Origin: a virus
Direction: 5' to 3' (one strand)
DNA: 26,337 nucleotides
IMG/VR virus record: IMGVR_UViG_3300021959_000327
Span: 1-26,337 of that record
Below the pieces are notes generated by a model that had not been told where the DNA came from, made no database searches, and saw only the letters and a program-made list of their open reading frames with translations. Within the stretch, counting starts at the first letter, position 1; each line of letters begins with the position of its first letter. Of this stretch, positions 3,720 through 26,337 are shown in pieces. The translations under genes were made by a program, and so were the position numbers.

Positions 3720-6700
3720 ATGGCCCTCGATGATAAAGATATTTTAATTACACCCAATACCGGCAGCGCCAACGAACCGAAGATTGAGTTTGTTGGTGCA
3801 GATGCCAGTGGTAATGACACCATTACTCTTAGTACCAGTTACGATGGTACGGTTTCTACCCTTTCTTTTGAAGCTTCTTCAGGACAACTTTTCAGTGTTG
3901 CAAACGTTGACAGTGATGGAGATGGGTATTTATTTGCTGTTAACGATAAGTCGGGTATCCCTTCTTTACAGGTAGAGGTTGATGGTACTGTTATTCTTAA
4001 TCCCAATGTTGGCAATGTTATCGTTGGTACTTCTACAGATGATGGTTCTAATGTATTTCAAGTTTCCGGCAATTCTAAATTAACGGGTGATGTTTCTGGT
4101 ATCACCGATCTTTATATCGACGATCAAATTATTTCTACAGGTGATACAAACACCTATTTTCAATTTCACGCGGCAGATCAAATGCGAATGGTTGCTGGTG
4201 GAACAGAAAGACTTGAAATAACTAATGTTTCGCCTCACGTTCTTGTTACGGGTAACTTAAAAGTTCAAGGTAACATTGAAGCAACGGGTACTCTTGATAC
4301 GACAGGTCAGAACGACCTCGCTGTTACTGATAGAAAAATTACCTTAAACGATGGTGAAACTGCATCGGGTGTTAATGGTGGTACTGGTGGTGAACTTGCG
4401 GTATCAGGTATTTTCATTGATAGAGGACAATTAGATTCTGCATCATTTATATTTGACGAAGTTGATGATAAATGGAAGGCTAGATTAAATAGTGCATTTG
4501 ATACACCTGCGCTGGCAACTTTTGCGGCAGCGACATTGGAAGGTAATTTAAATTGGTCTTATATTCAGAGCAAACCAGACCCCGTTGTTACTGTCGAATT
4601 ATCGGGTGATGTCACTGGTTCTGGAAACGCTACGCTCACGGACTTGGGTAATGGAACAGTTTCATTAACCACAACTATTGCTGCAAATAGTGTTGCTTTA
4701 GGTACGGACACGACAGGTGCGTATGTTGCTGATATTGTTCAAGGTAACGCAATCAGTATTTCCGAAACAGCAAATAATGCGGAAGGAAACGTAGTAACCA
4801 TTAATCACGCTGATACATCATCAGTGGGTAACTTATCTTCTGATAATGCGAACGGTGTTGTACTTCAAGATATTTCATTCACCTTTGATACTTATGGTCA
4901 CACAACTGCGGCTTCTGTAGCAACAACTGACTTAGACAGCAGGTATATAAGGTCTTTCCAAGTAGAAGATGGTGATGGTACTGAAGTTGCGATTAACCAG
5001 GCGAATGAGTGGAAATTTGTAGAAGGTGCTGGAGATGGTGCTACTATTGATATTAACTGGACAGATACTACGGATGGTAGTGATGGTGATCCATATGATT
5101 TAACTTTTAGTGTAACTAACACAGATAAAGGTTCTTCACAAAATATTTTCAAAACCTTTACTGTTGACGATACTGACACTGAATATACTTGGGCCACAAC
5201 AGGTTCAGCTGTCGCTGATACCAATTCAGATACGCTGACATTTGTTAGTGGAAATGATTTTGACGTTGATGTTGATGCCGACTTGGATGCTATTCGTTTT
5301 CAACATGTTGATATAACAAGAACTGACACAACATCTAGTGCATCCCCAACATATGGCGGCACATTCTCCGTTATTGATTCGTTAACCACCAATGCACGTG
5401 GTCACGTTACTGCGGCTAACGTCAAAACAGTAACGGTTCCTGCTAGTGATAATACAAATACGACTTATGATTTATCAATCATTCAGACAGGTGGAGACAA
5501 TGACAACCCGGCAATTAGATTAGCGGCTGGGGGTTCTGGTTCAGGAAACGACGATTTAACACTTACAGGTGGGGGTGCGATTACAATTACTCGTACTTCC
5601 GACACTGGAGTTACTATTGACCATACTGATACATCAACACAAGCAAGTGTCGATAATAGTGGAAACACATTTATCCAAGATATTACACTTGATACATATG
5701 GACACGTCACTGGTTTAACAAGTGCAACCACCTCAATCGGTGATGCGACAATTACTCTTTCCGCTGGGACCGATTTAGGAACGGGTGGGGCCTTCACTAC
5801 AAACCAGACAGGTAATGAAACTATTACCTTCAATCATTCAGATATAACAAGAACTGACACTACATCAACAGATGCTCCAGCATATGGCGGCACATTTGAA
5901 GCAGTCACAAGTGTTACTAGTAGCGCTAGAGGTCACATTACTGCCATTGATGTTTCCACTATTACAATTCCAGCAAGTGATAATACAGATACAACGTATT
6001 CTATCAGTACCGTGGCCGGTGGTGATGGTGTATCAGAAAAAATTCGATTAACTGCTGGTGGTTCTGGTTCTGGAACTGACGATATTATATTGGCAGTAGC
6101 ACAAACTGGTAGTACTGACGGTCTTGACATTTCTGAAAGTGGTGATACAATCACTTTTGCACACCATGACACATCTACTCTTACTGGTCAACAAGGTACT
6201 GCTGGTATTGCAAACATCACCGTAGATGAGATGGGTCACGTTACAGCAGTAGGTACCGCAACATATAATAATTATGTTCACCCGTCTTACACAGCAAGAA
6301 CCGTTGCAGTCAACACCTCCGGTGTTCAGGTGCTTGATACACTGAATATCACGGTAGACACTATCGGTTCTGTTACGGTTGCAAATGCCGCAACAAGAAC
6401 ATTACCTAGTGCAGGCTCGAGTACTACTGGTGTGGTCACCTCGGCCGCACAAACTTTTGGCGGTAAGAAAACATTTGCGAATGGTATAGAATTAACTAAC
6501 GGGGCCACGGCGCAAGCTATAGAATTTCATCGCGATGAGGGCGTGTTAAGCATCACGGCAGGCGAGGTTTTGGGTGACATCAACTTCTATGGTACAGACG
6601 AAAATATAAAAGATCTTAGTGTTCGTATTAGAGCGACTGCATATAACGAGTGGAACACTAGCACCGATATATCAGACGCTCCAGGCGAATTATCAATATG

Positions 6701-8321
6701 GGTAGTCAGAGATGGAACAGACACTTTATATGAAACTTTAACTATTAATCAGGCTGAAGTTGTTGTTAATGAAGGTAGTCAAGACGTTAATTTCAGGGTG
6801 GAGAGCAATACCAATACTAACGCACTTTTTGTTGACGGGGGAACTGGCCATGTTGGCGTGGGTGGGGTGGCCAATTCCGTCGCGGACTTGACTGTGAGCG
6901 CCAGTAGTCCGATCGTACAATTAACGGACACAGCGGTAAGCTCTGATTGGGACGTAGGTGATACCTTCGGTATTATTCAGTGGAACGGTGAGGGTAACTT
7001 AATAACACGAATTGAATCTAGACAAACATTAGAAAATCAGATTGTCCCTTACGGCGGTTTCGTCGTTGCCACTGGCACCGGGTCTAACACCCCTGAAAGA
7101 ATGGTAATTGATCATAATGGTTGTATTACCATGGTCGCTGGAGGCACCACCGCGAGCAGTACTCTCAATTTCCTAGCCGACCCAGGCACTTCAGATGATA
7201 GAATTAATTTATCTCTACAGCAAGAATTTAGAAGAACGACTGGGGCAGCTGATTTGGGAGCCGCAGTGGTTTTATCTGGTGTCGCCAGGGCAGCCCTGAC
7301 GAACAACCAAGATTCCGATTTATTTACCATCATAGGGTCTACTAATGTAAACGCTCGATACTTTGCAAATGCTTCAATTTCTTTATATAAACCCGCCGGG
7401 GCCGCGGAGGAAGGCGGTATAAAATTTTCTACGGGCAAGCATAATTTCATCACTCCCAGCACCTTAACCGAGAGGATGCGTATAACCGAAGACGGCAACG
7501 TGTTGATTGGTTTGATCTCAGGTCAAGATGCGCTAATTCACGCCCAATCACCTAAGACAAACTATCTTGACTACGCCACTGTGTTTGCTGGTGGAACTGA
7601 CGCAAATAATGGTCAACATAGTATTTCATTGATGACTGCGGGTAATGGTTTATCGGGAATCATAGGCTCAAACTTGTCTATTGACGGCGCTACTTTTAGT
7701 CAGTCAGTATCGGCTAGAAGCAGTGCTTATATTTCATTTGCGAACGCCACTACAGCGGGCAAAATTTCCGTCATAGATTTTGGAGGATTTACCCCTGGCA
7801 CTACTACAGCGTTGGTTAAGATGAGGCTGGATGGCGACGGCAACTTTTACATTGGAACTACGACAACTGGCGGCAATGTTGCAAATGGCTTTACAATTCA
7901 AAATTCTGCTGGTGCAACCTATACGGCCCTTGGTCATCCAAATGGTACGTCTTCGGGTGCAGCGTATACGATCTTTTCGTACAATTCAGGCACGATTGGG
8001 TCTATTACTCAAAATGGTACAACTGCCGTTTCCTACAACACATCATCAGACCAACGCCTCAAGTACAACATTGCAGCCGCTGATGACGCAGGTAGCAAGA
8101 TCGACGCTATCCAAGTACGAAAGTTTGATTGGAAGGTTGACGACTCACATCAAGACTACGGCATGGTGGCTCAAGAACTACTTGAGGTTGCACCTGAAGC
8201 AGTAGCACAAGGCGAGACTGAAGACGACATGATGGGCGTTGACTACAGCAAGTTAGTCCCAATGATGATTAAAGAAATCCAATCACTACGAGCAAGAATT
8301 AATGCGCTTGAAGCTGAATGA
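3720..8321 (+). CDS. Giant tail fibre with C-terminal peptidase S74 chaperone, 1533 residues
   Basis: The N-terminus (MALDDKDILITPNTGS, then LFAVNDKSGIPSLQVEVDG) is the conserved baseplate-proximal start of marine T4-like fibres, and contains an acidic D-x-D-x-D-G loop near residue 64 that could bind calcium. Residues ~390-850 carry five G-H-(T/V/I)-T hairpins arranged in a tandem ~177-residue unit. Residues ~925-1430 are fibre modules of a different, GC-richer type (ERMRITEDGNVLIG). The last ~90 residues are an intramolecular chaperone (endosialidase type, peptidase S74): SDQRLKYNI, DYGMVAQELLEVAPEAV and a C-terminal coiled coil (MIKEIQSLRARINALEAE). Known family members trimerise, then cut themselves before the Asp of S-D-x-R-L-K, so the mature fibre should end near residue 1443. 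A late promoter lies just upstream. It overlaps the next gene by 20 bases. Role: receptor-binding fibre. Confidence 0.9.
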   Translation: MALDDKDILITPNTGSANEPKIEFVGADASGNDTITLSTSYDGTVSTLSFEASSGQLFSVANVDSDGDGYLFAVNDKSGIPSLQVEVDGTVILNPNVGNVIVGTSTDDGSNVFQVSGNSKLTGDVSGITDLYIDDQIISTGDTNTYFQFHAADQMRMVAGGTERLEITNVSPHVLVTGNLKVQGNIEATGTLDTTGQNDLAVTDRKITLNDGETASGVNGGTGGELAVSGIFIDRGQLDSASFIFDEVDDKWKARLNSAFDTPALATFAAATLEGNLNWSYIQSKPDPVVTVELSGDVTGSGNATLTDLGNGTVSLTTTIAANSVALGTDTTGAYVADIVQGNAISISETANNAEGNVVTINHADTSSVGNLSSDNANGVVLQDISFTFDTYGHTTAASVATTDLDSRYIRSFQVEDGDGTEVAINQANEWKFVEGAGDGATIDINWTDTTDGSDGDPYDLTFSVTNTDKGSSQNIFKTFTVDDTDTEYTWATTGSAVADTNSDTLTFVSGNDFDVDVDADLDAIRFQHVDITRTDTTSSASPTYGGTFSVIDSLTTNARGHVTAANVKTVTVPASDNTNTTYDLSIIQTGGDNDNPAIRLAAGGSGSGNDDLTLTGGGAITITRTSDTGVTIDHTDTSTQASVDNSGNTFIQDITLDTYGHVTGLTSATTSIGDATITLSAGTDLGTGGAFTTNQTGNETITFNHSDITRTDTTSTDAPAYGGTFEAVTSVTSSARGHITAIDVSTITIPASDNTDTTYSISTVAGGDGVSEKIRLTAGGSGSGTDDIILAVAQTGSTDGLDISESGDTITFAHHDTSTLTGQQGTAGIANITVDEMGHVTAVGTATYNNYVHPSYTARTVAVNTSGVQVLDTLNITVDTIGSVTVANAATRTLPSAGSSTTGVVTSAAQTFGGKKTFANGIELTNGATAQAIEFHRDEGVLSITAGEVLGDINFYGTDENIKDLSVRIRATAYNEWNTSTDISDAPGELSIWVVRDGTDTLYETLTINQAEVVVNEGSQDVNFRVESNTNTNALFVDGGTGHVGVGGVANSVADLTVSASSPIVQLTDTAVSSDWDVGDTFGIIQWNGEGNLITRIESRQTLENQIVPYGGFVVATGTGSNTPERMVIDHNGCITMVAGGTTASSTLNFLADPGTSDDRINLSLQQEFRRTTGAADLGAAVVLSGVARAALTNNQDSDLFTIIGSTNVNARYFANASISLYKPAGAAEEGGIKFSTGKHNFITPSTLTERMRITEDGNVLIGLISGQDALIHAQSPKTNYLDYATVFAGGTDANNGQHSISLMTAGNGLSGIIGSNLSIDGATFSQSVSARSSAYISFANATTAGKISVIDFGGFTPGTTTALVKMRLDGDGNFYIGTTTTGGNVANGFTIQNSAGATYTALGHPNGTSSGAAYTIFSYNSGTIGSITQNGTTAVSYNTSSDQRLKYNIAAADDAGSKIDAIQVRKFDWKVDDSHQDYGMVAQELLEVAPEAVAQGETEDDMMGVDYSKLVPMMIKEIQSLRARINALEAE
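5310..6371 (+). repeat. Tandem 531-base (177-codon) repeat inside the fibre gene
   Basis: Two diverged head-to-tail units start at 5310 and 5841 with the identical 20-mer gatataacaagaactgacac. Each encodes DITRTDTTS..YGGTF, then ARGH(V/I)TA, PASDNT(N/D)TTY, AAGGSGSG or TAGGSGSG followed by (N/T)DD, and a second G-H-V-T hairpin. G-H codons fall at 4896, 5400, 5700, 5931 and 6234; 5400 to 5931 is 531 bases and 5700 to 6234 is 534. The 4896 copy is a more degenerate relative upstream. The second unit decays toward its end, so the right boundary is approximate. Confidence 0.75.
8046..8051 (+). other. Predicted autocleavage site of the S74 chaperone (Ser1443/Asp1444)
   Basis: Codons tca-gac encode the Ser-Asp of S-D-Q-R-L-K. 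In the endosialidase chaperone family, cleavage occurs between this Ser and Asp, with Ser and the Lys five residues later as the catalytic pair. Both are present here (Ser1443, Lys1448), so self-cleavage should release a ~90-residue fragment. Confidence 0.7.
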
Positions 8322-8607
8322 AATACTTACAGGTACAGACCCTAAATGTTGGGCTATTTTTGAACGCCAAAGGCGTATACATAAGCACATAGAACAACAC
8401 GGGATGGTCAACCCAATAGTGGTTAACAGCAAAAACGAACTTCAATTTGGCGGGTGTCGTTTACAATATGCAGTTTTAAATGACTGGAAAGATATAGAGG
8501 TTATCGTTTGCGATGACGCAGACGAAATCAGAAAAATGCAAGACGCGCATTCATTGTTTGAATACAGTTTTCTTGCTGAAGAATACATAGAACGCAAAAA
8601 GCAATAA
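8302..8607 (+). CDS. Small ParB/Srx-fold-like protein, 101 residues
   Basis: The middle of the protein follows the ParB N-terminal nuclease-like pattern: a helix ending in G-x-x-x-P-I-V-V (HGMVNPIVV, residues 33-41), then L-Q-F-G-G-C-R-L-Q-Y-A (48-57, the place of the usual G-x-R-R-x-x-A box, with Leu replacing the second Arg) and D-I-E-V-I-V-C-D (64-71). The helix-turn-helix and dimer domains of true ParB are absent, so plasmid-type partition is unlikely. In phages this fold occurs in small proteins of uncertain role, sometimes as nucleotide-binding or nicking domains. It starts inside the last 20 bases of the fibre gene and has no strong ribosome binding site, so expression is probably coupled to the fibre. 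The function is unknown. Confidence 0.6.
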   Translation: MRLKLNEILTGTDPKCWAIFERQRRIHKHIEQHGMVNPIVVNSKNELQFGGCRLQYAVLNDWKDIEVIVCDDADEIRKMQDAHSLFEYSFLAEEYIERKKQ

Positions 8608-9099: not shown

Positions 9100-9459
9100 A
9101 TGTCCTATTATAAAGACCTGACAATTGATCAGGGTTCAACTGCGTCTATTAAAGTATACTTGACGAATAAAGATGGCACTGTTAAGAACCTCTTTAACTT
9201 TATTCCTTCTGCACACATAAGCCCTAACTATAATTTAGACAGCGCTTCCATAACCCCCTTCACTTGTTCTAAAGATTCGGACGCTGGCGTTATTAATCTT
9301 AGTTTAACTCATTTGCAGACAGATTCTTTTAAATCGAATAAAAGGTATGTCTATGACTTAGAAATCGCACGAGACTCTTCAGGAACCGTTGTGGAGGTCG
9401 AACGAGTTATGGAAGGACAATTGTTCATCACCCCCTCTGTAACTAAGTTGACACTCTAA
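9100..9459 (+). CDS. Small beta-rich virion protein, 119 residues
   Basis: The sequence is a short all-beta protein: KDLTIDQGSTASIKVYLTNKDG at the start, an alternating pattern in the middle, RYVYDLEIARD near residue 83-93 and a closing strand VMEGQLFITPSVTK. This pattern (D-L-x-I-D-Q-G ... R-Y-x-Y-D-L/V-E-I ... G-x-x-x-x-x-P-x-V-T) is common in marine phages and resembles the N-terminal domain of BppU-like baseplate proteins, so a baseplate, neck or fibre-attachment role is plausible. It occupies the position held in T4 by wac (neck whiskers, just before gene 13), although it has no sequence likeness to fibritin. It has its own late promoter. Confidence 0.7.
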   Translation: MSYYKDLTIDQGSTASIKVYLTNKDGTVKNLFNFIPSAHISPNYNLDSASITPFTCSKDSDAGVINLSLTHLQTDSFKSNKRYVYDLEIARDSSGTVVEVERVMEGQLFITPSVTKLTL

Positions 9460-16415: not shown

Positions 16416-18074
16416 ATGGCAGACGATAGCATCTTTAAATTATTTGGTTTTGAATTACGTAGATCTGGAGACAAGAAAAAGAAAAGCCTCGAATCTATTG
16501 TTCCTCCTACCGACGATGACGGTGCAGGATATGTGACTGCCGCTGCTGGCCACTATGGTCAGTATATTAATATGGAAGGTGATAACTCTAAAGATAATCA
16601 CCAACTTATTCTTAGATATCGTGGTGTTGCGACACATCCTGAAGTAGATATGGCAATTGAAGAAATTGTCAACGAATCTATCACTGCTTCAGAACTAACA
16701 TCTAACCTCGAACTATCACTAGAAGATGTAGACGCCCCCGATAAAATCAAAGATCAAATTCAAGAAGAATTCGAAAACATCGTATCTATGTTGAAATTCA
16801 ACGATAATGGACACGATATTTTTCGTTCATGGTATGTTGATGGAAGAATCTATCATCACTTACTAGTGAACGAATCAAATCTTAAAGCTGGTATTCAAGA
16901 AATTAGACACATTGACGCATCCAAGATTCGTAAAGTCAAGAATGTAAAATATAAAAAGGACCCTGCAACAGGTGCAAAAATCGTTGAGAACGTCGATGAA
17001 TTTTATATTTACGAAGAAAAACCCGGCCAACAAAATTCAGCAGTAAAACTTTCTACTGATTCTATCAGTTATGTTACTTCTGGTCTATTGGATGAGACAA
17101 AAAAGAAAGTTGTTTCACACTTACACAAAGCGTTAAAACCTATCAATCAGTTGCGTATGATGGAAGACTCGTTGGTCATCTATCGTCTTGCTCGTGCGCC
17201 TGAACGTCGAATCTTTTACATCGATGTAGGTAACTTACCCCGTGGTAAGTCTGAACAGTATATGAAAGACATTATGGCTAAGTATCGTAACAAGTTGGTT
17301 TATGATGCAAATACGGGCGAATTGAAAGATGACCGTAAACATATGTCAATGTTGGAAGACTTTTGGTTACCCCGTCGAGAAGGTGGTCGAGGAACAGAAA
17401 TCTCTACTTTGCCTGGCGGTGATAACCTTGGGCAAATTGACGATATCATTTATTTCCAAAAGAGATTATATCGTGCATTAAATGTTCCTGTCAATCGATT
17501 GGAACAAGAAGCCCAATTTTCGTTGGGACGTTCTACTGAAATCTCAAGAGATGAGATTAAACTACAAAAATTTATAGACCGTTTACGAAGAAAGTTTTCT
17601 CAAGTATTCTTGGGTATGCTTCGCAAACAACTTCTGTTGAAAGGTATTATTACAGAACAAGATTGGGAAGAATGGCGTAATAACATTATAGTTGATTTTG
17701 TGAAAGATAATTATTTCACAGAACTTAAAGAAACCGAAATTATGAGAGAACGTTTCGGACTTCTTAATGAAGCGTCTGGGTTTGTTGGTAACTATCTCAG
17801 CAAAGAATGGATATGGAAAAATGTTCTTCGTTTGTCAGAAGATGATATGGAAGAAATGCAGAAACAGATTGATAATGAAAGTGACTCGGGCGACTCGGGC
17901 GAAGTAGATTTGGATAGAATGGGGAGTGAAGAAACTCCGGAACCGAAAGAAAAACCCGAAGCGGAACCCGAAGCGGAAGAAGAACCTAAACAAGAAAAAT
18001 ATATACCTACACACGAAGACGAACTTACTGAAGAATTGACAAGGTATATGGCAAGAATTAATGAACAAGATTGA
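16416..18074 (+). CDS. gp20: Portal vertex protein gp20
   Basis: This is the T4 gp20 portal, a dodecameric ring at the head vertex for DNA entry, neck binding and head assembly initiation. Diagnostic stretches are DKIKDQIQEEFENIVSMLKF, LKPINQLRMMEDSLVIYRLA, RAPERRIFYIDVGNLPRGKS, REGGRGTEISTLPGGDNLGQ and FQKRLYRALNVPVNRLE. The length of 552 residues is slightly above T4 (524). The C-terminus (about 486-535) is unusual: an S-D-S-G-D-S-G-E stretch and then a Glu/Pro-rich segment EETPEPKEKPEAEPEAEEEP, presumably a flexible crown extension toward the head interior. The last 14 bases overlap the collagen-like gene. The weak Shine-Dalgarno sequence (GGAAAG, 16404-16409) suits low expression. Confidence 0.96.
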   Translation: MADDSIFKLFGFELRRSGDKKKKSLESIVPPTDDDGAGYVTAAAGHYGQYINMEGDNSKDNHQLILRYRGVATHPEVDMAIEEIVNESITASELTSNLELSLEDVDAPDKIKDQIQEEFENIVSMLKFNDNGHDIFRSWYVDGRIYHHLLVNESNLKAGIQEIRHIDASKIRKVKNVKYKKDPATGAKIVENVDEFYIYEEKPGQQNSAVKLSTDSISYVTSGLLDETKKKVVSHLHKALKPINQLRMMEDSLVIYRLARAPERRIFYIDVGNLPRGKSEQYMKDIMAKYRNKLVYDANTGELKDDRKHMSMLEDFWLPRREGGRGTEISTLPGGDNLGQIDDIIYFQKRLYRALNVPVNRLEQEAQFSLGRSTEISRDEIKLQKFIDRLRRKFSQVFLGMLRKQLLLKGIITEQDWEEWRNNIIVDFVKDNYFTELKETEIMRERFGLLNEASGFVGNYLSKEWIWKNVLRLSEDDMEEMQKQIDNESDSGDSGEVDLDRMGSEETPEPKEKPEAEPEAEEEPKQEKYIPTHEDELTEELTRYMARINEQD

Positions 18075-19149
18075 TAAAATTTCTACTGCTTTTGCTGTTG
18101 TTCATACGCAGAAGGAAATTGAAAAACTTGAGAACAAAATATTTGATGTTCTCGAAGAAGTGCAAACTATTCAAGGTCCGTCAGGTCGTGATGGCAAACA
18201 AGGAGCAAAAGGTGATAAAGGGGTCAAAGGTGATCGAGGCGATAAAGGCGAACGCGGCGAACTTGGTGCCGACGGCGTTGATGGAGCACCAGGACCTGTT
18301 GGCGAGAAGGGAGAACGCGGTGAACAAGGTGAACAAGGACTTCAAGGTGTTGCTGGAATTGCTGGCAAGGATGGAGAACGCGGAGATCGTGGAGAACAAG
18401 GGCCGCAAGGAATACAAGGATTAAAGGGTGATCAAGGAGATCAAGGACCCAAAGGAGACACTGGAGCAACTGGTAACAGGGGTGAAAAAGGTGATCGCGG
18501 CATTGACGGAACCAAGGGAGACATGGGCCCACAGGGATCTAAGGGTGACAAAGGAGACAAAGGAGACAAAGGAGATTCTGGAGTTCGTGGAGAAAAGGGC
18601 GAACAGGGAGAGCGTGGCGAACAAGGGCCACAAGGAATACAAGGTGAAGCAGGACCAGATTATAAAGATAGGTTCGAAAACGCCTTAGAACAATTTAACG
18701 AAAGACTTACAGAAAATTCAGCCATAGTAAATAAAAATGTTGAACGTACCCTTGCTAATGTGCAAAAATCACTTTCGACCCTTGGTGGTGGTGGTTCATA
18801 CAAACTGTTGGACAATGCAGATGTAGAAGCAACCAAATTATCTACAGTGCAGGGAGACAGTATTTTAATATACGACCCACTCAAGAAAAAATTTGTGGTG
18901 GAAAGTTTTCTACAAATCATAGACAGGATAAAAGCAGATTTGGAAGTACAATATAACAGATTAATCGATACCGCCGGGAATTATATCTACATAGGTGAAT
19001 CTTTGCCTGGGACAGATCCTTCTTTGGCTAAATGGAGAATCAAAAGAGTAGATCAACAAGCTGGCGATGATTATGAGATATTATGGGCCGACGGCACAGC
19101 AGATTTTTCTAAAATATGGAATGATCGTCTAAGTTTCACATACTCATAA
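18061..19149 (+). CDS. Collagen-like virion protein, 362 residues
   Basis: Residues 1-38 form a helical, probably coiled-coil start ([20 protein letters not shown]). Residues 39-200 are 54 uninterrupted Gly-X-Y triplets rich in G-D-K, G-E-R and G-P-Q. The Lys-Gly-Asp/Glu pattern is known to stabilise bacterial collagens without hydroxyproline. Residues 201-245 are again helical ([20 protein letters not shown]), probably a trimerisation segment, and the tail (about 245-362) is a mixed domain ending with a beta-like stretch ([20 protein letters not shown]). I infer a rigid trimeric rod on the virion, such as a whisker or head/neck fibre. It starts inside the portal gene, so it is translationally coupled. 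In T4 this position is taken by prohead core genes. The function is unproven. Confidence 0.85.
18175..18660 (+). repeat. Collagen-type 9-base periodic repeat
   Basis: There are 54 consecutive codon triplets beginning with a Gly codon, giving a 9-base periodicity; the most regular part is near 18541-18575 (repeated aaaggagac units). The same periodicity keeps antisense and shifted frames open over this stretch without being coding evidence for them. Confidence 0.85.
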
Positions 19150-19225: not shown

Positions 19226-21199
19226 ATGGCGCTGATTACAGATCCAGACAATTTGATAGATGCGGCCGTTGATTCCGCACAAAACATTTTTATCAACACA
19301 GCCACGCGAACTATTCAGATTCGGAATAATGTAGCGTCAGGTAATCCCAACAAAGGACCAGAACTATCTAACGATGGTGTCACGCACCAAGCGTTGTATT
19401 CTTTTTTGAAAGAACAGTGGAAGAATGACCCTAAAGCAAAAAACTTAATAGCCTATCCTTTTCCACTTATCGCAATTACACCAGAACAGTTCGAATGGCG
19501 GTTTGGTTGGTCTCCTATAGATGACACCACTCGTTCGTTTATCCGTACTGGGGGTTGGAGAGAATTCGATGTAGATAACACTACTCAATTGCGTGAATAC
19601 ATTGGTACTATCTCTCTTGGTAACATCCAAGGTACTCCGACTGAAGGTGATGCCGGATCTGTTAACCAACACAAAGTTTACTATGGTTTCTTTAACGCCA
19701 CCACAGGTGCTTCTGTTGCTGGTCCTACTGATTACACCTACTCCGGTGAAGCTAATCAGGCCATTGAGACTTATCGTGATTTAAACGGCGACGGATCTCC
19801 TGATTTCGATTATCGAACCCGTGTTTTAAGATTGTTTATTCGTTCACAACCTTATACTGGAGTACAAAACACTGTTGCTTGGACTTTCGACCAAACAGAT
19901 ACAACTGATATTGGTATCATTGGCGGTACAACCCTTCCTTTTAATACACAAAGATTTCCGTTGGTAGAAGGGGAAGATTTGAACATTAAAGATAGGGATG
20001 GTGCTAGTGTCACTGACGCTGTCATAGCCGCTGCTGATGCTGTTGGACAGAAATATTCTTTACAAGGTGACGGTCCTACAATTGATTATCTCGCGGCAGA
20101 CGAACTATCTAATACATTTGGTTACACACAGGATCTTCTGAGTGGACCGTTCAACTTTGGTGTTAAGATCGACGCGACTTCGCCAACTGTTACTCAGTTG
20201 TCTAACTCCGAATTGTACTCATGGGTACAGTATAACCTACGTCAAGATTCAGACATAGAATTTGCCGCTGGTACTGTTAAGAACGGTAAACTTGCTGACG
20301 AACTATTGGCGTTTGTTGGACCTACTTTGACCACGAAACTTGCAACTAACCTTGATCAAAGTGGTACGAAAACTGGTGTTGCGGTTACAAATATTCGTCC
20401 CGCTGACATCAACAACACTCAATTACGTGACACAAACAATAATGTACTGCAATCATTTCCGTTCTCTTCAACGGTTACTGTTACATTCTCATCAGATATT
20501 CTTGCAGATAGTGATCAAGCTAAAGCTTCAGTATATTACGATTACACACGGGAATATACAGGAACCTCGGTAGACATTTCGGGTGCCGGTGCTGCTAGTG
20601 TGTTTGGAAGTTCTTCTTTTGATAGTGCTACAATAACCCTTAGTGGTTTCTCTACTACTCCGTTGTCACCAACCAATAGTGAAGGTCTTGTGTCCACTGC
20701 AACTCCTGCCGACGCTTACTTCAAACTAACTGGTGCTACAAATGCTGATAATAATGTAATTTTTGGTGTAACTCAAAGATATACTGACAACTTATTTTCT
20801 GTCATTACGCTTGATGATACTCCCACATTAGTAGATGAAACAATTACTGGTGGTACAATTCGTACTCATCCCATTAACAGTCCATCAGCTTTGTTAGTCG
20901 ACTCTGCTGGCACCACCACTGAAAACACTGGTGGGGTTGTATCACTTCTTGCTACTCCTCCTCTGTATCAAGGGAATGAAAGAACTGTTAATGCTAGTGA
21001 CGAACTTGTGTTCTCATACGCATACGATGGTAACACTCAGAAGGATAGGGTATCGGGTGCTGACATTGCGATTAACATAAGAGCACTCGGTCTTGCATCT
21101 GGACAATGGGTGGAACAGAGAGCCACAGTGCAAAAAGTTGACAATAACCCTGTATCTGTAATTTCTGCGGTAGAAAGGAACTACAGTAACCCAGTATAA
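19226..21199 (+). CDS. Large virion structural protein, 657 residues
   Basis: The N-terminal ~130 residues (MALITDPDNLIDAAVDSAQN, DGVTHQALYSFLKEQWKNDP, LIAYPFPLIAITPEQFEWRF) match the beginning of a structural protein family I recall from marine T4-like phages; the exact role is not known. Residues 185-195 (DLNGDGSPDFD) form a dockerin/EF-type calcium loop pattern. The rest looks like beta-rich, Thr/Ser-rich domains. The protein ends E-R-N-Y-S-N-P-V, nearly the same as the 685-residue protein downstream. AGGAG at 19211-19215 supports the start. It is expressed from the promoter just upstream and is likely a fibre-, head- or baseplate-associated component. Alternatives cannot be separated from the sequence alone. 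Confidence 0.75.
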   Translation: MALITDPDNLIDAAVDSAQNIFINTATRTIQIRNNVASGNPNKGPELSNDGVTHQALYSFLKEQWKNDPKAKNLIAYPFPLIAITPEQFEWRFGWSPIDDTTRSFIRTGGWREFDVDNTTQLREYIGTISLGNIQGTPTEGDAGSVNQHKVYYGFFNATTGASVAGPTDYTYSGEANQAIETYRDLNGDGSPDFDYRTRVLRLFIRSQPYTGVQNTVAWTFDQTDTTDIGIIGGTTLPFNTQRFPLVEGEDLNIKDRDGASVTDAVIAAADAVGQKYSLQGDGPTIDYLAADELSNTFGYTQDLLSGPFNFGVKIDATSPTVTQLSNSELYSWVQYNLRQDSDIEFAAGTVKNGKLADELLAFVGPTLTTKLATNLDQSGTKTGVAVTNIRPADINNTQLRDTNNNVLQSFPFSSTVTVTFSSDILADSDQAKASVYYDYTREYTGTSVDISGAGAASVFGSSSFDSATITLSGFSTTPLSPTNSEGLVSTATPADAYFKLTGATNADNNVIFGVTQRYTDNLFSVITLDDTPTLVDETITGGTIRTHPINSPSALLVDSAGTTTENTGGVVSLLATPPLYQGNERTVNASDELVFSYAYDGNTQKDRVSGADIAINIRALGLASGQWVEQRATVQKVDNNPVSVISAVERNYSNPV

Positions 21200-21250: not shown

Positions 21251-21517
21251 ATGAAAATATCCTTAGACCAAACATGTGGTATACTTAATCGAAGTATTGA
21301 TGAAGTTCTTTATATTGCTAACAACGAGAAACGACTTCCCATATCTTTGGCACAAGATGAAGAGATAATGTATAACGAGGATGGTACAATAACATTTAAT
21401 GAAAACGTGGAAACCAAAGAACCTCAATGGTTTTTTCTATTAGAAGACGTACTTGCATTTAAAAAAGAAATGGACGAAGGACTTGTTGGAAAAGTAGAAA
21501 GTCATTTAAACGATTGA
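21251..21517 (+). CDS. Small protein, possible excisionase/AlpA-type winged helix, 88 residues
   Basis: I do not recognise the gene with certainty. The layout resembles a MerR/excisionase-type winged-helix unit: a first helix pair SLDQTCGILNRSIDEVLYIA, a wing-like RLPISL, an acidic linker, and a closing aromatic strand plus helix QWFFLLEDVLAFKKEMDE (compare W-x-F-x-x-x-D-V-x-A-F in such proteins). The protein is acidic overall, which is unusual for a DNA binder, so it may instead bind protein. TTGGAGA at 21237-21243 gives a good ribosome binding site. It is the first gene of a two-gene insert between two related large structural genes. Confidence 0.6.
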   Translation: MKISLDQTCGILNRSIDEVLYIANNEKRLPISLAQDEEIMYNEDGTITFNENVETKEPQWFFLLEDVLAFKKEMDEGLVGKVESHLND

Positions 21518-21524
21518 GTATATT

Positions 21525-21995
21525 ATGGGATGTGGTGAATGCACTGAGTGTTGCGAATTACTTGAAGTAAAATCATTAAAAGCGACACAAGGTAATATTA
21601 TTGAAACAATTGTCATAGATTCTCCAGCAGGAGAAATGTGCGGTTATTGCGAGAAAAATGTGGGTTGTAAAGTTCATAAGGAGCGGCCTAAGATTTGTCG
21701 CGACTTCTTATGTTCTTATGCACAACACGAAAATGCACCTCTGTTTATGAGACCAGATAAGTGTGGAATTATTTTTGAAAAAATTGACGAGGAAATGTTC
21801 ATAGGAACAGTGAGAGCAGAAGTCACAATAAGTGAACACGGTATGAATCAAATAAAGGTTTTTAATCAACAAGGATATAGTGTAGTTTTAAGAAAACACG
21901 ACACATTACAACCTATGTTATATCCCCGTGATGGTGTGGAAAAATTTAATCTTCTCAAAAAGTTTCTAAAATTGGTAAAGATGAACAATGGCTAA
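21525..21995 (+). CDS. YkgJ-type cysteine-cluster (metal-binding) protein, 156 residues
   Basis: The N-terminal C-x-x-C-x-x-C-C (Cys3, 6, 9, 10), a second group (Cys39, 42, 48) and the highly typical R-P-K-I-C-R-D-F-L-C (Cys58, Cys63) match the YkgJ/UPF0153 family, which binds zinc or iron (possibly an Fe-S cluster) and whose biochemical role is unsettled. The C-terminal ~85 residues are unlike the family core and end in a basic segment. In the phage it may be an assembly or modification accessory; no virion role can be claimed. The ribosome binding site is weak (GAG at 21516-21518), seven bases separate it from the preceding stop, and it overlaps the next gene by eight bases, so all three genes are probably coupled. 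Confidence 0.75.
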   Translation: MGCGECTECCELLEVKSLKATQGNIIETIVIDSPAGEMCGYCEKNVGCKVHKERPKICRDFLCSYAQHENAPLFMRPDKCGIIFEKIDEEMFIGTVRAEVTISEHGMNQIKVFNQQGYSVVLRKHDTLQPMLYPRDGVEKFNLLKKFLKLVKMNNG

Positions 21996-24045
21996 CACAC
22001 CCACCACAGACTTAAATGATATCTATACCGATGGTGCTTGGGGCGAACCAGCCCGAGACGCTGGTGGGTCGACGCCAATTGTTGATGCAGAAGCATACCT
22101 GCAAGGAAACGATTGTAGTTCCCAAGCGCTTCGGGCGAACAAATCTGGTGCGTGTGGAGCAATGTATCAAGCGGTTACTGACCCCGCTGGTTTCACAGAT
22201 GGGACAGACGTTTTTCTCCTTTGGTGGTACTTTCTTTTTCCCAACGCACTTAACGAATTTAATGCAACCCAAGGTCTTGGTCAAGCGTTTCCAGGTCTGA
22301 ACGCGCCTGGCACTGAGTCTGGATATTTTTTAGGTGTAGGTTCTGGTGATGGTAATTCTTATCATTGGGCAGTAGGTGGAAGAGATTACGGTACGTATCC
22401 ATATGGCGGTTGGATTAATATTGCTATTGACCCTTCAACAGGTGCGACCAAAGCAGCAATTCAAGAGGGCACACCTACCGCAGGAACATATACTGCACTA
22501 ACTGCAACACCTAATCCTAGAATTGGTTTGAACCGTGGTCAGGGACATGCGGTAGATGCAGTTCGTTGGGGAAGAGCATCTATAATATTTACGGGTGGTT
22601 CTCCAGCTGGTACCTTTGACGATATGGCGGCACAAAACGATTTAGAAGCCAATCGTTGGGGAATATTTCAAGAAACTGCGGCAGGATATCTTTACAAAGG
22701 GAAACTAGAACTAGGAACAACTGGGGCATCTCTTTTATTTCAAGATTCGAATCAGAGTATATTGATTGATGATACTCGATATTGTTATCCCGAATTTAAT
22801 CTTATTGAAGTTAATAACGCAAGCTCGAATATCATATGGGAAAATGTTGTAGTGAGTAAAGGGGTTGCATATGGTAGTACAATAGATTCGTCGAGAGGTA
22901 ATTTAATTGTTAATGATGACGCAACTACAAACTTAAAAGGTTGTTCATTTACTGATATGGGGTTTTTCAATTTTGGTTCTAATTCTACTAACACGGATGT
23001 AACATTTCGAAGAACAGATGTTGTCAGACAGAACGGAGCGACGTTCACTAATTGTGATTTCGAAGCGACTCATGATTCTGCTCACGCATTACACGTTAGT
23101 GATTCAGGAAACGATATAAGTTTAATTACTGGTTGTAGTTTTATAGCAACACCCAATAAGTCAAATCATGCGATACGTCTAGGAGACGTTGCCCAAACCA
23201 AAACAATTAATTTTTCAGGTAATACTCTGACAGATTATACTGCGGGAACTACTGGTGATTTTGTCGGCACAACAGGAACAGATAGTGCAGCAATAGAAGT
23301 TAACGTAGCAACAAGCCAAACATTAACCATTAACGTTATTAACAATTCTTCTATTCCGTCTATTCAAAATCTTGGTGCGGGGACGGTTTCTATTGTTCAA
23401 TCGGCTACAGTTTCGTTGACTCGTTTGTTGGGTAATACAGAAATTAGTGTACTTGATAACCCATCACCATATTCTGCAACTTCATTACCCGCCCCGAGTG
23501 TGACAACTGTTTCGTCAACTGAGAGAATAAGTGCAGACACATTTGTTGGAGACAATACAAACTATTATCAAATCAATACTGGTGGTACATTCGTTACGAT
23601 TGATGCAGTAGGTTCTGCTGTGTTTAGTAATTTCCCTGGCGTGTTACAGGACACAAACGCAACTAATCCTAGAGCATTAGCCGATGGTGACAAGATACGA
23701 ATCGTAGTTCGAGATGATGATACCAACCCATCATTACAATTGTTTGATGAGTTTGAGGTTGATGCAGACCCAACAGCACCGACTACTACTTCGATAATCA
23801 CAAAAACACTTTCCTCTGGGTTTACTTCTGCGTTTGGAACTGCAATTACTGGTGCAAATTCTAAAACAGTCACAGTAGAAAAAGTAGACGCCAGATTCCA
23901 ATTTGGAACGCCCGTTGGTAACGTACTAGATGTCTTGGCATTTAGAACTGGGTCAGATCCCGTTTTAACATTAAACATTGTTGCTGAAACGGGTAATATA
24001 CCATTGACTCAGGTCGGTGACAGAAACTACAGCAATCCAGCATAA
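21988..24045 (+). CDS. Large beta-rich virion protein with beta-helix-like region, 685 residues
   Basis: The N-terminal ~260 residues look like a jelly-roll domain (TDGTDVFLLWWYFLFPNALN, GYFLGVGSGDGNSYHWAVGG, RYGRASI-like VDAVRWGRASIIF). Residues ~265-460 show the rung pattern of a right-handed beta-helix (IIWENVVVSKG, GCSFTDMGFFNF, NCDFEATHD, ITGCSFIATPNKSNHAIRLG). A Thr/Ser-rich beta segment follows, and the protein ends D-R-N-Y-S-N-P-A, sharing six identical residues (RNYSNP) with the end of the 657-residue protein. Related phage structural proteins are known to me in pattern but not in function. A fibre- or spike-like virion component is the likely role. It starts within the last codons of the YkgJ-type gene. 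Confidence 0.75.
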   Translation: MANTPTTDLNDIYTDGAWGEPARDAGGSTPIVDAEAYLQGNDCSSQALRANKSGACGAMYQAVTDPAGFTDGTDVFLLWWYFLFPNALNEFNATQGLGQAFPGLNAPGTESGYFLGVGSGDGNSYHWAVGGRDYGTYPYGGWINIAIDPSTGATKAAIQEGTPTAGTYTALTATPNPRIGLNRGQGHAVDAVRWGRASIIFTGGSPAGTFDDMAAQNDLEANRWGIFQETAAGYLYKGKLELGTTGASLLFQDSNQSILIDDTRYCYPEFNLIEVNNASSNIIWENVVVSKGVAYGSTIDSSRGNLIVNDDATTNLKGCSFTDMGFFNFGSNSTNTDVTFRRTDVVRQNGATFTNCDFEATHDSAHALHVSDSGNDISLITGCSFIATPNKSNHAIRLGDVAQTKTINFSGNTLTDYTAGTTGDFVGTTGTDSAAIEVNVATSQTLTINVINNSSIPSIQNLGAGTVSIVQSATVSLTRLLGNTEISVLDNPSPYSATSLPAPSVTTVSSTERISADTFVGDNTNYYQINTGGTFVTIDAVGSAVFSNFPGVLQDTNATNPRALADGDKIRIVVRDDDTNPSLQLFDEFEVDADPTAPTTTSIITKTLSSGFTSAFGTAITGANSKTVTVEKVDARFQFGTPVGNVLDVLAFRTGSDPVLTLNIVAETGNIPLTQVGDRNYSNPA

Positions 24046-24094: not shown

Positions 24095-26337
24095 ATGGCA
24101 GGCGAAAAGAGATATACTAGGATACCACCGGAGAGTACGGGTGATCGGTTGTACATGGTGCATACTGCCGAGATCGAATTTGTTCAAAAATCAGATGCAC
24201 AAGGTGGGAAAACAAATCACGTTTGGAATATTGGTAAACGATATGACATTGCTGGATTTTTAGGTGGTGATGTTCACGTTCACGGTGTTTATGATAAAGG
24301 TGATGGTACAGGTATTCTTGCGGTTCACTACAACTCATCTGCTAAATTTCAAAATGCAGTACCCGAAGCGCTTGCAGTAATTTCTTATAACGGTGATCCC
24401 ATCTGTAAAGTAGGAACTGCATACGATGTTTATGTTCCTACAACACACATTATGGGATACGACAATCCAGAGTATGGATTAGAAATTGATCGTTTCGGTG
24501 CGGCAAACATTAGGTTTTCGGAAGGACAACCAGAACTTGCTGCTTATGGACAGTTGCGTATTGCTAACTCTAAAGTTCTTGCCAGATACAATTTTGATGT
24601 TAGCGCAATGCCTGATCAATTTGCTAACTCTCTTTTAGGTTCTGGCACAACAGTTTGGGATTCAGGTAAGAAATGGATACGTCTTGGTTTAGAAGGCAAT
24701 CTTGGCAATGGCGCTTCTGGAGACCTTGCAACAAACACTTCGCATCTCTATCACCCATTATCATATGGTTCTGGCGTCTTCGTTATTATGGGTACTATGA
24801 TTCCTGATAGTGGTAAAGCAACCTGTGTGAGAAACTGGGGACCATTTGATGCAACCGATGGATTTATGTTCCGTCTTACTGGGTCAGGTCTTTCTGTCGT
24901 ACACCGTAGAACCTTTGACGGTGTTCAAGGCGAAACAATCATACCACAGGCAAATTGGAACGGAGATCGTCTGGATGGTGCTGGTGGCAATGGTAATAGA
25001 TCAGGTGTGACACTTGATGTCACAACGGCAAACCAATATTTCTACGATTATCAAATTTTGGCGGGAGGTTCTATTCGTTGGGGTATTATCATCAACGGTG
25101 AACGAATTATCTGTCACGAAATGGATATGAGTAATCGAACTGACGTTGGATGGCTAACAAATGCTATCGGATTAAGCGCAAGACCTGTCTGTTGGGCAAC
25201 CAAGAGATTGTCTGCTCCAACCGAAGATACTGCTGACTATCTTTATGCACTGGGTGCTGGTGTTTGGACTGATGCTCAAACTGACCCTGTTCAAGAATTG
25301 GGAAAACCAGGATCTCTCGACGAAACGTTCGTGTTCGATAATAAAGTAACTACTGCGGGTGTTCCATATACGCAGGGTGCTTATTACTTAACCTCAATGC
25401 GCCCTATCAGTGTATATCCTGCTGGTTCTCCTGCCGCTGGACAGTTCAATCATTCGTTATATGCACCTGAAACTATTCGTCTTAATTGTTTTAACCAAGA
25501 TGGGTCTTTTCCTGATGGCGAACTTCGAGTATTCTTGAAGTGCATTCTTCGAGGAGAAAAATGGGAAAATCCCAGTTATAGCACAATAGAACGAGACGGC
25601 GATGCGTTTACTTCGGTTGATGGCATTCGTTCTGTATACAACGCCAAAGCGAATCACATTGGTCACGGACCAGAAATTCTTCGAGTGCCTATACGAAACG
25701 GTGTGACCGAGTTAGATCTTGAAAGGTTGTTCGACAATATTCAATATGGTGCGGTAAGACCCAATACAGAAGTAGGTCTTTCAAGACGTAAACAATCGCT
25801 AACTAATATTACTGGCAATTTAGATCGTTACAACAGGGGTGTTAATCGTGTAGAAATCGAAGTTGGACCAGATCCCGAACGAGGTGGTAACATTCACTAC
25901 TTCGAAGAAAAAGATCGAATCGAACTTAAAGATATTGTTGATGCGGGAGCAGATGGTCCCGCAACATTGCTGAACAAAGCATTCTATATGTCTTTCTTGT
26001 CAAGTAACGATGCTTGGTTGTATGATAGCGATGCGGGTGGGTTATCATTACTCGAAAATGATCGTAATACACGAATCATAAACTTCACACCCTCTACTGT
26101 TCAGTTAGGGATTAACAATCTTTCTCCGAGCAATCAAGACAGCGTACAAATTGCTGGTGCGGGAACTGCACTTGTTCTTGATTATGATTCTGATAATGGT
26201 CGAATATATCTTGAAGGTAGAAACAATGCTCTGTTAGACACAGGTCTTGCGGGTGGTACTGCATTCACAGTTAAGAACAGTTCTGGATCAACATTGTTGA
26301 GTACAACATTAACTTCTATTAACACAGTGGGCGTTAA
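24095..26337 (+). CDS. Large virion structural protein, 3' end outside window
   Basis: My own translation from the ATG at 24095 (CGGAG at 24084-24088 as ribosome binding site) gives at least 747 codons with no stop before the window ends, so it is a 3'-partial gene. The start is MAGEKRYTRIPPESTGDRLY. Near residue 142 it has FSEGQPELAAYGQLR, and around residues 215-295 a concanavalin-like core: SHLYHPLSYGSGVFVIMG, CVRNWGPFDATDGFMFRLTG and WNGDRLDGAG. These recall large structural proteins of marine T4-like phages that carry receptor-binding or decoration domains. The later part (to ~750) is beta-rich. It has its own late promoter. A virion structural role is well supported by context; the precise role is not. 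Confidence 0.8.
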   Translation, partial: MAGEKRYTRIPPESTGDRLYMVHTAEIEFVQKSDAQGGKTNHVWNIGKRYDIAGFLGGDVHVHGVYDKGDGTGILAVHYNSSAKFQNAVPEALAVISYNGDPICKVGTAYDVYVPTTHIMGYDNPEYGLEIDRFGAANIRFSEGQPELAAYGQLRIANSKVLARYNFDVSAMPDQFANSLLGSGTTVWDSGKKWIRLGLEGNLGNGASGDLATNTSHLYHPLSYGSGVFVIMGTMIPDSGKATCVRNWGPFDATDGFMFRLTGSGLSVVHRRTFDGVQGETIIPQANWNGDRLDGAGGNGNRSGVTLDVTTANQYFYDYQILAGGSIRWGIIINGERIICHEMDMSNRTDVGWLTNAIGLSARPVCWATKRLSAPTEDTADYLYALGAGVWTDAQTDPVQELGKPGSLDETFVFDNKVTTAGVPYTQGAYYLTSMRPISVYPAGSPAAGQFNHSLYAPETIRLNCFNQDGSFPDGELRVFLKCILRGEKWENPSYSTIERDGDAFTSVDGIRSVYNAKANHIGHGPEILRVPIRNGVTELDLERLFDNIQYGAVRPNTEVGLSRRKQSLTNITGNLDRYNRGVNRVEIEVGPDPERGGNIHYFEEKDRIELKDIVDAGADGPATLLNKAFYMSFLSSNDAWLYDSDAGGLSLLENDRNTRIINFTPSTVQLGINNLSPSNQDSVQIAGAGTALVLDYDSDNGRIYLEGRNNALLDTGLAGGTAFTVKNSSGSTLLSTTLTSINTVGV

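Follow-up and report, generated by a model that had tools for sequence, protein, structure and literature searches.

A collagen-like stem gene directly after the portal gene of T4-like phages, possibly part of a virion appendage with some homology to the Syn5 horn module

In the IMG/VR virus record IMGVR_UViG_3300021959_000327, an open reading frame for a collagen-like protein directly follows gene 20, the gene of the T4-like portal protein, and the question raised by this locus is what a long collagen rod might do in such a place. We analyzed the whole stretch of DNA (26,337 nt, hereafter the window) together with relatives of the gene from IMG/VR. The reading that we favor, with a rough probability of 0.52, is that the product of this gene is the collagen-like stem of a modular virion appendage, which has partial homology to the horn module of cyanophage Syn5. 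It is called the stem gene below.

The stem gene (18061–19149, plus strand) starts with ATG and encodes a product of 362 aa. The 54 Gly-X-Y triplets claimed for it in the original prediction were all found, in residues 39–200 and without a break, and the Pfam family Collagen (PF01391) matched the ORF with an E value of 1.1e-28 (99.2 bits, cut-off 27.2). In 20,000 shuffles of the protein's residues, the longest run was nine consecutive triplets, which excludes a chance origin of the rod. The codon use of the rod is mixed, with 4 Gly codons, 22 codons at X and 19 codons at Y; these mixed codons, and a run length that is kept in the family, ruled out a DNA slippage artefact as its origin. Glu and Asp predominate at X and Lys, Gln, and Arg at Y, there is a single Pro in Y, and the steps KG[D/E] and RG[D/E] occur 13 and 8 times, respectively. 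Such charged X and Y residues with one Pro in Y suggest that the rod would owe its stability to charge pairs. Its computed length is ~46 nm.

Both flanks of the rod are amphipathic or helical, so that the earlier description of the ends as coiled-coil-like was a fair one. Hydrophobic residues filled 64% of the heptad a and d positions in residues 1–38 and only 46% in residues 201–245, where AF2 placed a helix at low confidence. The C-terminal beta domain carries the motif Y[IV]GEAxPG..WRIKR..WADG..F.KIW.DR..TYS in an alignment of 33 members. The model of this domain was of middling confidence (pLDDT 67); a Foldseek search with it gave no match at E <= 0.001 and none in the PDB, and the best VIA-align Z score was 4.3.

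When IMG/VR was scanned with the last 164 residues of the stem protein, 49 loci were recovered. A search for collagen-like genes adjacent to gene 20 had been proposed as a check, and at all 49 loci the gene lay directly after gp20. The members of the family have in common a conserved N-terminal helix, the rod, and the C-terminal beta domain. The rod spanned 51–59 triplets in 36 of the 49 distinct stem proteins, and shorter rods of 17–33 triplets were found in five relatives (L012, L027, L032, L034, and L094). For the N-terminal part, dN was 0.09–0.47 and dS was 0.6–2.9; in the N- and C-terminal parts alike, dN was well below dS, which was often saturated, and this comparison of sequences points to purifying selection on both parts. 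In tblastn searches, whose low-complexity filter masks the collagen rod, the whole protein and its C-terminal part matched nothing in 50,697 phage records even at an E value of 10, and the stem proteins of two relatives used as queries gave no INPHARED match either; by these sequence searches, no INPHARED isolate has the stem gene. Four long relatives had no photosystem genes, so that a cyanobacterial host is not indicated.

The stem gene heads a cassette of ~4–10 kb that separates gene 20 from the head-core genes; the window holds the first part of this cassette (Table 1).

Table 1 Features of the portal gene, the stem gene and the cassette in the window.
Feature	Position	Strand	Evidence
Gene 20, T4-like portal protein (552 aa)	16416..18074	+	Portal_T4 E 2.4e-170, phrog_213
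Portal C-terminal extension (residues 489–552): charged linker, then a helix of 25 residues (528–552)	17880..18071	+	
Overlap of the gp20 3' end with the start of the stem gene, 14 nt	18061..18074	+	ORF coordinates
Stem N-terminal helix (residues 1–38) with a conserved motif of 24 residues	18061..18174	+	Alignment of 43 N-termini
Collagen-like rod, 54 Gly-X-Y (residues 39–200)	18175..18660	+	Repeat count, Pfam, codons, shuffles
Post-collagen predicted helix and GGGG (residues 201–245)	18661..18795	+	AF2, low confidence
Stem C-terminal beta domain (residues 246–362)	18796..19146	+	Family alignment of 33 members; HMM matches
gp53-like protein (657 aa), Syn5 gp53 homologue, all-beta model	19226..21199	+	tblastn, alignment, AF2
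Small cassette protein (88 aa), conserved in place	21251..21517	+	Gene order of relatives
CxxCxxCC-type putative metal-chelating protein (156 aa)	21525..21995	+	Pfam E 0.0016 (below cut-off), phrog_9155 E 1.3e-10
Large cassette protein (685 aa)	21988..24045	+	C-terminal ends of relatives match Syn5 gp54 and Rctr197k gp179
Large cassette protein with a phrog_1645 'virion structural protein' domain, truncated at the end of the window	24095..26337	+	phrog_1645 E 1.7e-26

In those relatives whose contigs extend further, the order after the stem gene is a gp53-like gene, small ORFs, genes for one or two large beta-rich proteins, a phrog_1645 virion structural protein and a protein of ~200 aa. Only after these come a small acidic ORF (gp67-like), a ~66-aa ORF (gp68-like), gp21, gp22, and gp23; the gp67 and gp68 labels on the ~90-aa acidic ORF and the ~66-aa ORF rest on position and make-up. 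With these two separate ORFs standing before gp21 in the relatives, the stem gene does not fit the T4 prohead core genes gp67 and gp68, for which a small gene directly before gp21 would be expected. The original prediction, which noted that T4 has its prohead core genes here, needs amending, since in the relatives the core genes are all present and merely displaced by the inserted cassette. Two departures from the common gene order weigh against the appendage reading: three relatives (L047–L049) had a shorter form with two large genes and a different gene after the stem gene, and in five others (L039 and L041–L044) the gp53-like gene lay ~3 kb from the stem gene. In L041–L044, a putative zinc/iron-chelating gene of the CxxCxxCC type (6405–6848) directly followed the collagen gene, an unusual neighbour in a set of virion genes.

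The nearest isolate, C48C1, has a portal that is 67% identical. Between gp20 and gp21, this phage has nothing but small ORFs, as do Mosig, Melnitz, and P-SSM2, and the distance from gp20 to gp21 is ~0.2–1.6 kb in the nearest collagen-free relatives, which comprise these four phages and many contigs. Six long collagen-free T4-like contigs (42–114 kb) had no gp53-like gene. With gp21 close to gp20 in the collagen-free relatives and no gp53-like gene in the six long contigs, the cassette is accessory, an insertion. The locus is that of the post-gene-20 region of T4-like marine phages (gp67, gp68, and gp21–gp23), with the head-core genes following in both, whereas the isolates have only small ORFs where the collagen cassette stands ahead of the core genes here.

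That the product might belong to a vertex appendage, as originally proposed, is made plausible by the next gene, whose product is a homologue of Syn5 gp53. The two proteins aligned end to end with 32% identity over 439 aa (E 3e-40; tblastn E 4e-28). Syn5 gp55 was matched by the ~200-aa cassette proteins of seven relatives (best E 5.5e-13), whose place in the cassette lies beyond the end of the window. Matches to Syn5 gp54 were C-terminal only and came from two relatives (L066_5, E 3e-10; L070_6, E 9e-5), and the window's own 685-aa protein gave no match to gp54 at comparable strength (weak at most). The horn of Syn5 is reportedly made of gp53 and gp54. It stands on the vertex opposite the tail (PMC10575957).

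The AF2 model of the gp53-like protein was all-beta and multidomain (mean pLDDT 84, pTM 0.77). It had no PDB match at E <= 0.001, the best Z score being 6.7 for one domain, and in BFVD it matched a Syn5 structural protein of 622 aa only weakly (E 3e-4, TM 0.16). The cassette resembles the Syn5 horn cluster (gp52–gp55) in having a gp53 homologue directly after a small rod or adaptor gene, and, in relatives, a gp55 homologue in the same block and a C-terminal resemblance to gp54. It differs in that Syn5 is a T7-like podovirus with its horn cluster near the terminase genes and not after the portal gene, and in that Syn5 gp52 has 114 aa, no collagen, and another C-terminal domain than the stem protein.

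To follow the gp53-like genes outside the T4-like phages, we gathered those of unrelated phages with their surroundings. As the loci were chosen through either the stem gene or the gp53-like gene, it is adjacency, not co-occurrence, that is informative. Where the gene upstream of these gp53-like genes was close, its product was often small and had a beta domain at the C-terminus. Among 9,499 ORFs, an HMM of the stem C-terminal domain matched only stem proteins and small proteins 8–66 nt before gp53-like genes; the matches at non-T4 loci (L113, L114, L115, L117, L118, and weakly Rctr197k gp177) were mostly without collagen. At seven further loci (L110, L120, L123–L125, L142, and L154), the upstream ORF had 14–30 collagen triplets and another capping domain. 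Since the C-terminal domain keeps with gp53-like genes and the shaft is swapped, we infer that the gp53-like protein is bound by this domain, with the shaft acting as a spacer. With an HMM of the N-terminal part, no clear match to stem proteins outside the T4-like phages was obtained (best E 0.029, L116). The seven loci with another capping domain had no T4-like portal in the stretch examined, and Syn5 gp52 ends in the same repeat-like domain (TYxxGxLTxxxY..TKTLxYNxDGTLASIT) as their proteins. By eye, proteins of 118–122 aa before four gp53-like genes (L138, L139, L141, and L150) resemble the product of window positions 9100–9459, which lies before gp13.

Compared to known collagen-like phage proteins (PF01391; SPP1 gp12 and the tail proteins of PHROG 1806), the stem protein has the same plan of an uninterrupted Gly-X-Y rod with flanking, putative oligomerisation segments. 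It shows no sequence match to them outside the repeat and has a different capping domain, and unlike theirs its gene is linked to a gp53-like partner and to the portal gene. Capsid decoration proteins of the SPP1 gp12 type bind the centres of hexamers. In SPP1, gp12 belongs to the head and is a trimer with a collagen-like repeat (PMC7602432).

As predicted, the start codon of the stem gene lies inside the portal gene, its ATG standing 14 nt before the end of the gp20 stop codon. This overlap of 14 nt is kept in 35 of the 49 relatives, and at all 49 loci the stem gene starts between 17 nt inside the portal gene and 6 nt past its stop. No Shine-Dalgarno-like motif was found at the usual spacing before the stem gene, the sole such tetramer being at -20. 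Translation of gp20 and the stem gene is likely coupled by reinitiation, though this would be ordinary here: several neighboring genes in the window overlap by 1–30 nt, and weak start sites are also common there. Because overlaps are common among the window genes, that of gp20 and the stem gene is on its own weak evidence of linkage, and the dosage effect that had been suggested from it found no support. The other part of that suggestion, a link with the portal, is better carried by a C-terminal tail of the portal protein that is exclusive to the stem family.

We compared 161 distinct portals, 89 of which had no collagen gene and enough downstream sequence. A tail of 53–85 residues, made of a charged linker and a short amphipathic helix, was present in all 63 portals with a collagen gene next to them and absent from 87 of the 89 without one. 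In the two exceptions (L261 and L262), the next gene encodes a collagen-free protein of 572 aa with the same C-terminal domain (E 7e-15), so that the tail goes with the stem protein and not with collagen as such. These collagen-free versions lie at 5168–6886 of L261 and 6752–8470 of L262, and the T4-like portal before them, which bears a tail helix, is highly diverged (40% identical). We adjusted the tail motif after inspecting the portals, a first regular expression having misjudged four collagen-bearing and two collagen-free portals; the final motif found the tail in 63/63 and 2/89 portals, and a rule of length plus hydrophobicity in 60/63 and 2/89. On a portal tree built from the core (residues up to 495), the collagen trait changed 10 times, with 6 changes forced by well supported branches, and the tail switched in the same way as the collagen trait in all six independent pairs (p = 0.031, sign test). 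The tail and the start of the stem gene share DNA, and one deletion can remove both. In two portals (L174 and L180), the linker was kept and the tail helix was gone. The pattern of the helix is conserved between portals that are only 48% identical, which speaks for a function.

In T4, the C-terminus of the portal protein is part of the crown, which lies further inside the head than any other part of the portal (PMC4493910), so that a docking role of the tail would act inside, during prohead assembly. By eye, the tail helix (ELxExMxRYMxKLNEQ, window positions 17997–18071) resembles the C-terminal helix of the scaffold protein gp22 (SSxMxxYLxAIxK), which we compared in L064–L071 and L051–L055 and which is found in phages with and without the cassette. 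This resemblance, too, suggests action during prohead assembly. The tail helix usually has an L-x-E step like the gp21 protease consensus, again by eye. It is a tentative and, in our estimate, unlikely idea that the helix is a docking peptide for the stem or appendage through which the portal dictates the site and the single copy of the appendage. If true, portal docking would explain how one capsid vertex is singled out, a matter that is unsolved for the horn of Syn5.

The same evidence bears on three other readings of the gene. It could be part of a set of tail fibre or baseplate adhesin genes encoded in the head region, with the rod as an ordinary tail-fibre shaft. Collagen and gp53-like domains do occur in tail fibres, which counts against the appendage reading; 'triple collagen repeats' are listed among the putative receptor-binding structural proteins of a pelagimyophage (PMC7029224), and the model of the gp53-like protein had weak Foldseek matches to phage endosialidase folds. 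Most PHROG collagen matches are likewise annotated as tail fibre or tail, though they are driven by the repeat, and we did not accept these matches as an indication of function. Upstream of its neck genes, however, the window already carries a large fibre cluster, and the stem gene is tied to gp20 and not to tail genes at 49 of 49 loci and covaries with the portal tail. The tail fibre of Syn5, moreover, is gp46 and not gp53. We therefore regard a tail-fibre shaft as rather unlikely.

A neck or collar whisker, a functional analogue of T4 fibritin (wac) that sits near the portal and helps to handle the tail fibres, would suit the design of a trimeric rod and the link to the neck-proximal portal gene. 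T4 fibritin is ~53 nm long, a scale close to the ~46 nm computed here, but it is a coiled coil and not collagen, and T4 wac lies before gene 13 and not after gene 20. The Pfam scan of the stem protein returned Collagen only, with no match to a fibritin or foldon family, and the part of the portal that covaries with the stem gene is the C-terminus, which in T4 belongs to the internal crown and not to the neck (PMC4493910). This makes a whisker quite improbable. An internal role, in which the stem docks on the portal tail and serves head assembly as a core protein or ruler, would agree with a tail that extends the crown, which in T4 faces the capsid interior, and that resembles the gp22 helix, as well as with the narrow range of rod length in most relatives and the position of the gene among head genes. 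Against it, the C-terminal domain and the gp53-like partner are also found in phages of other kinds, and a complete relative without the stem gene has a normal set of core genes; we consider such a role very unlikely. The variant in which the rod is a ruler of head length is disfavored by the rods of 17–33 triplets in five relatives.

Under the appendage reading, the N-terminal helix would anchor the stem on the particle, and the trimeric collagen rod, stabilised by charge pairs and not by hydroxyproline, would space it outwards. The post-rod helix and the small beta domain may cap the trimer and hold the gp53-like protein, and the stem gene would open an accessory appendage cassette of stem, gp53-like protein, further beta proteins, and gp55-like protein. 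The stem would accordingly form a trimer in contact with the gp53-like protein, be present in the virion, and presumably sit on the head rather than on the tail. The cassette is common in uncultured T4-like aquatic phages and is kin in part to the horn genes of Syn5, a quite different type of phage; we found no description of it in the literature searched. Its stem designs, with or without collagen, and its capping domains appear to be interchangeable. The strict pairing of stem gene and portal tail offers a testable handle on how an appendage may be tied to one special head vertex.

Two minor observations concern the fibre genes of the window. A 1533-aa fibre-like protein (3720–8321) and the tail fibre gp46 of Syn5 have similar C-termini (30% over 99 aa, E 1e-8), and the shared part is probably a self-cleaving fibre chaperone domain. 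Directly after this largest fibre gene lies a 101-aa ORF (8302–8607) whose product resembles, by eye, a ParB/sulfiredoxin-type domain.
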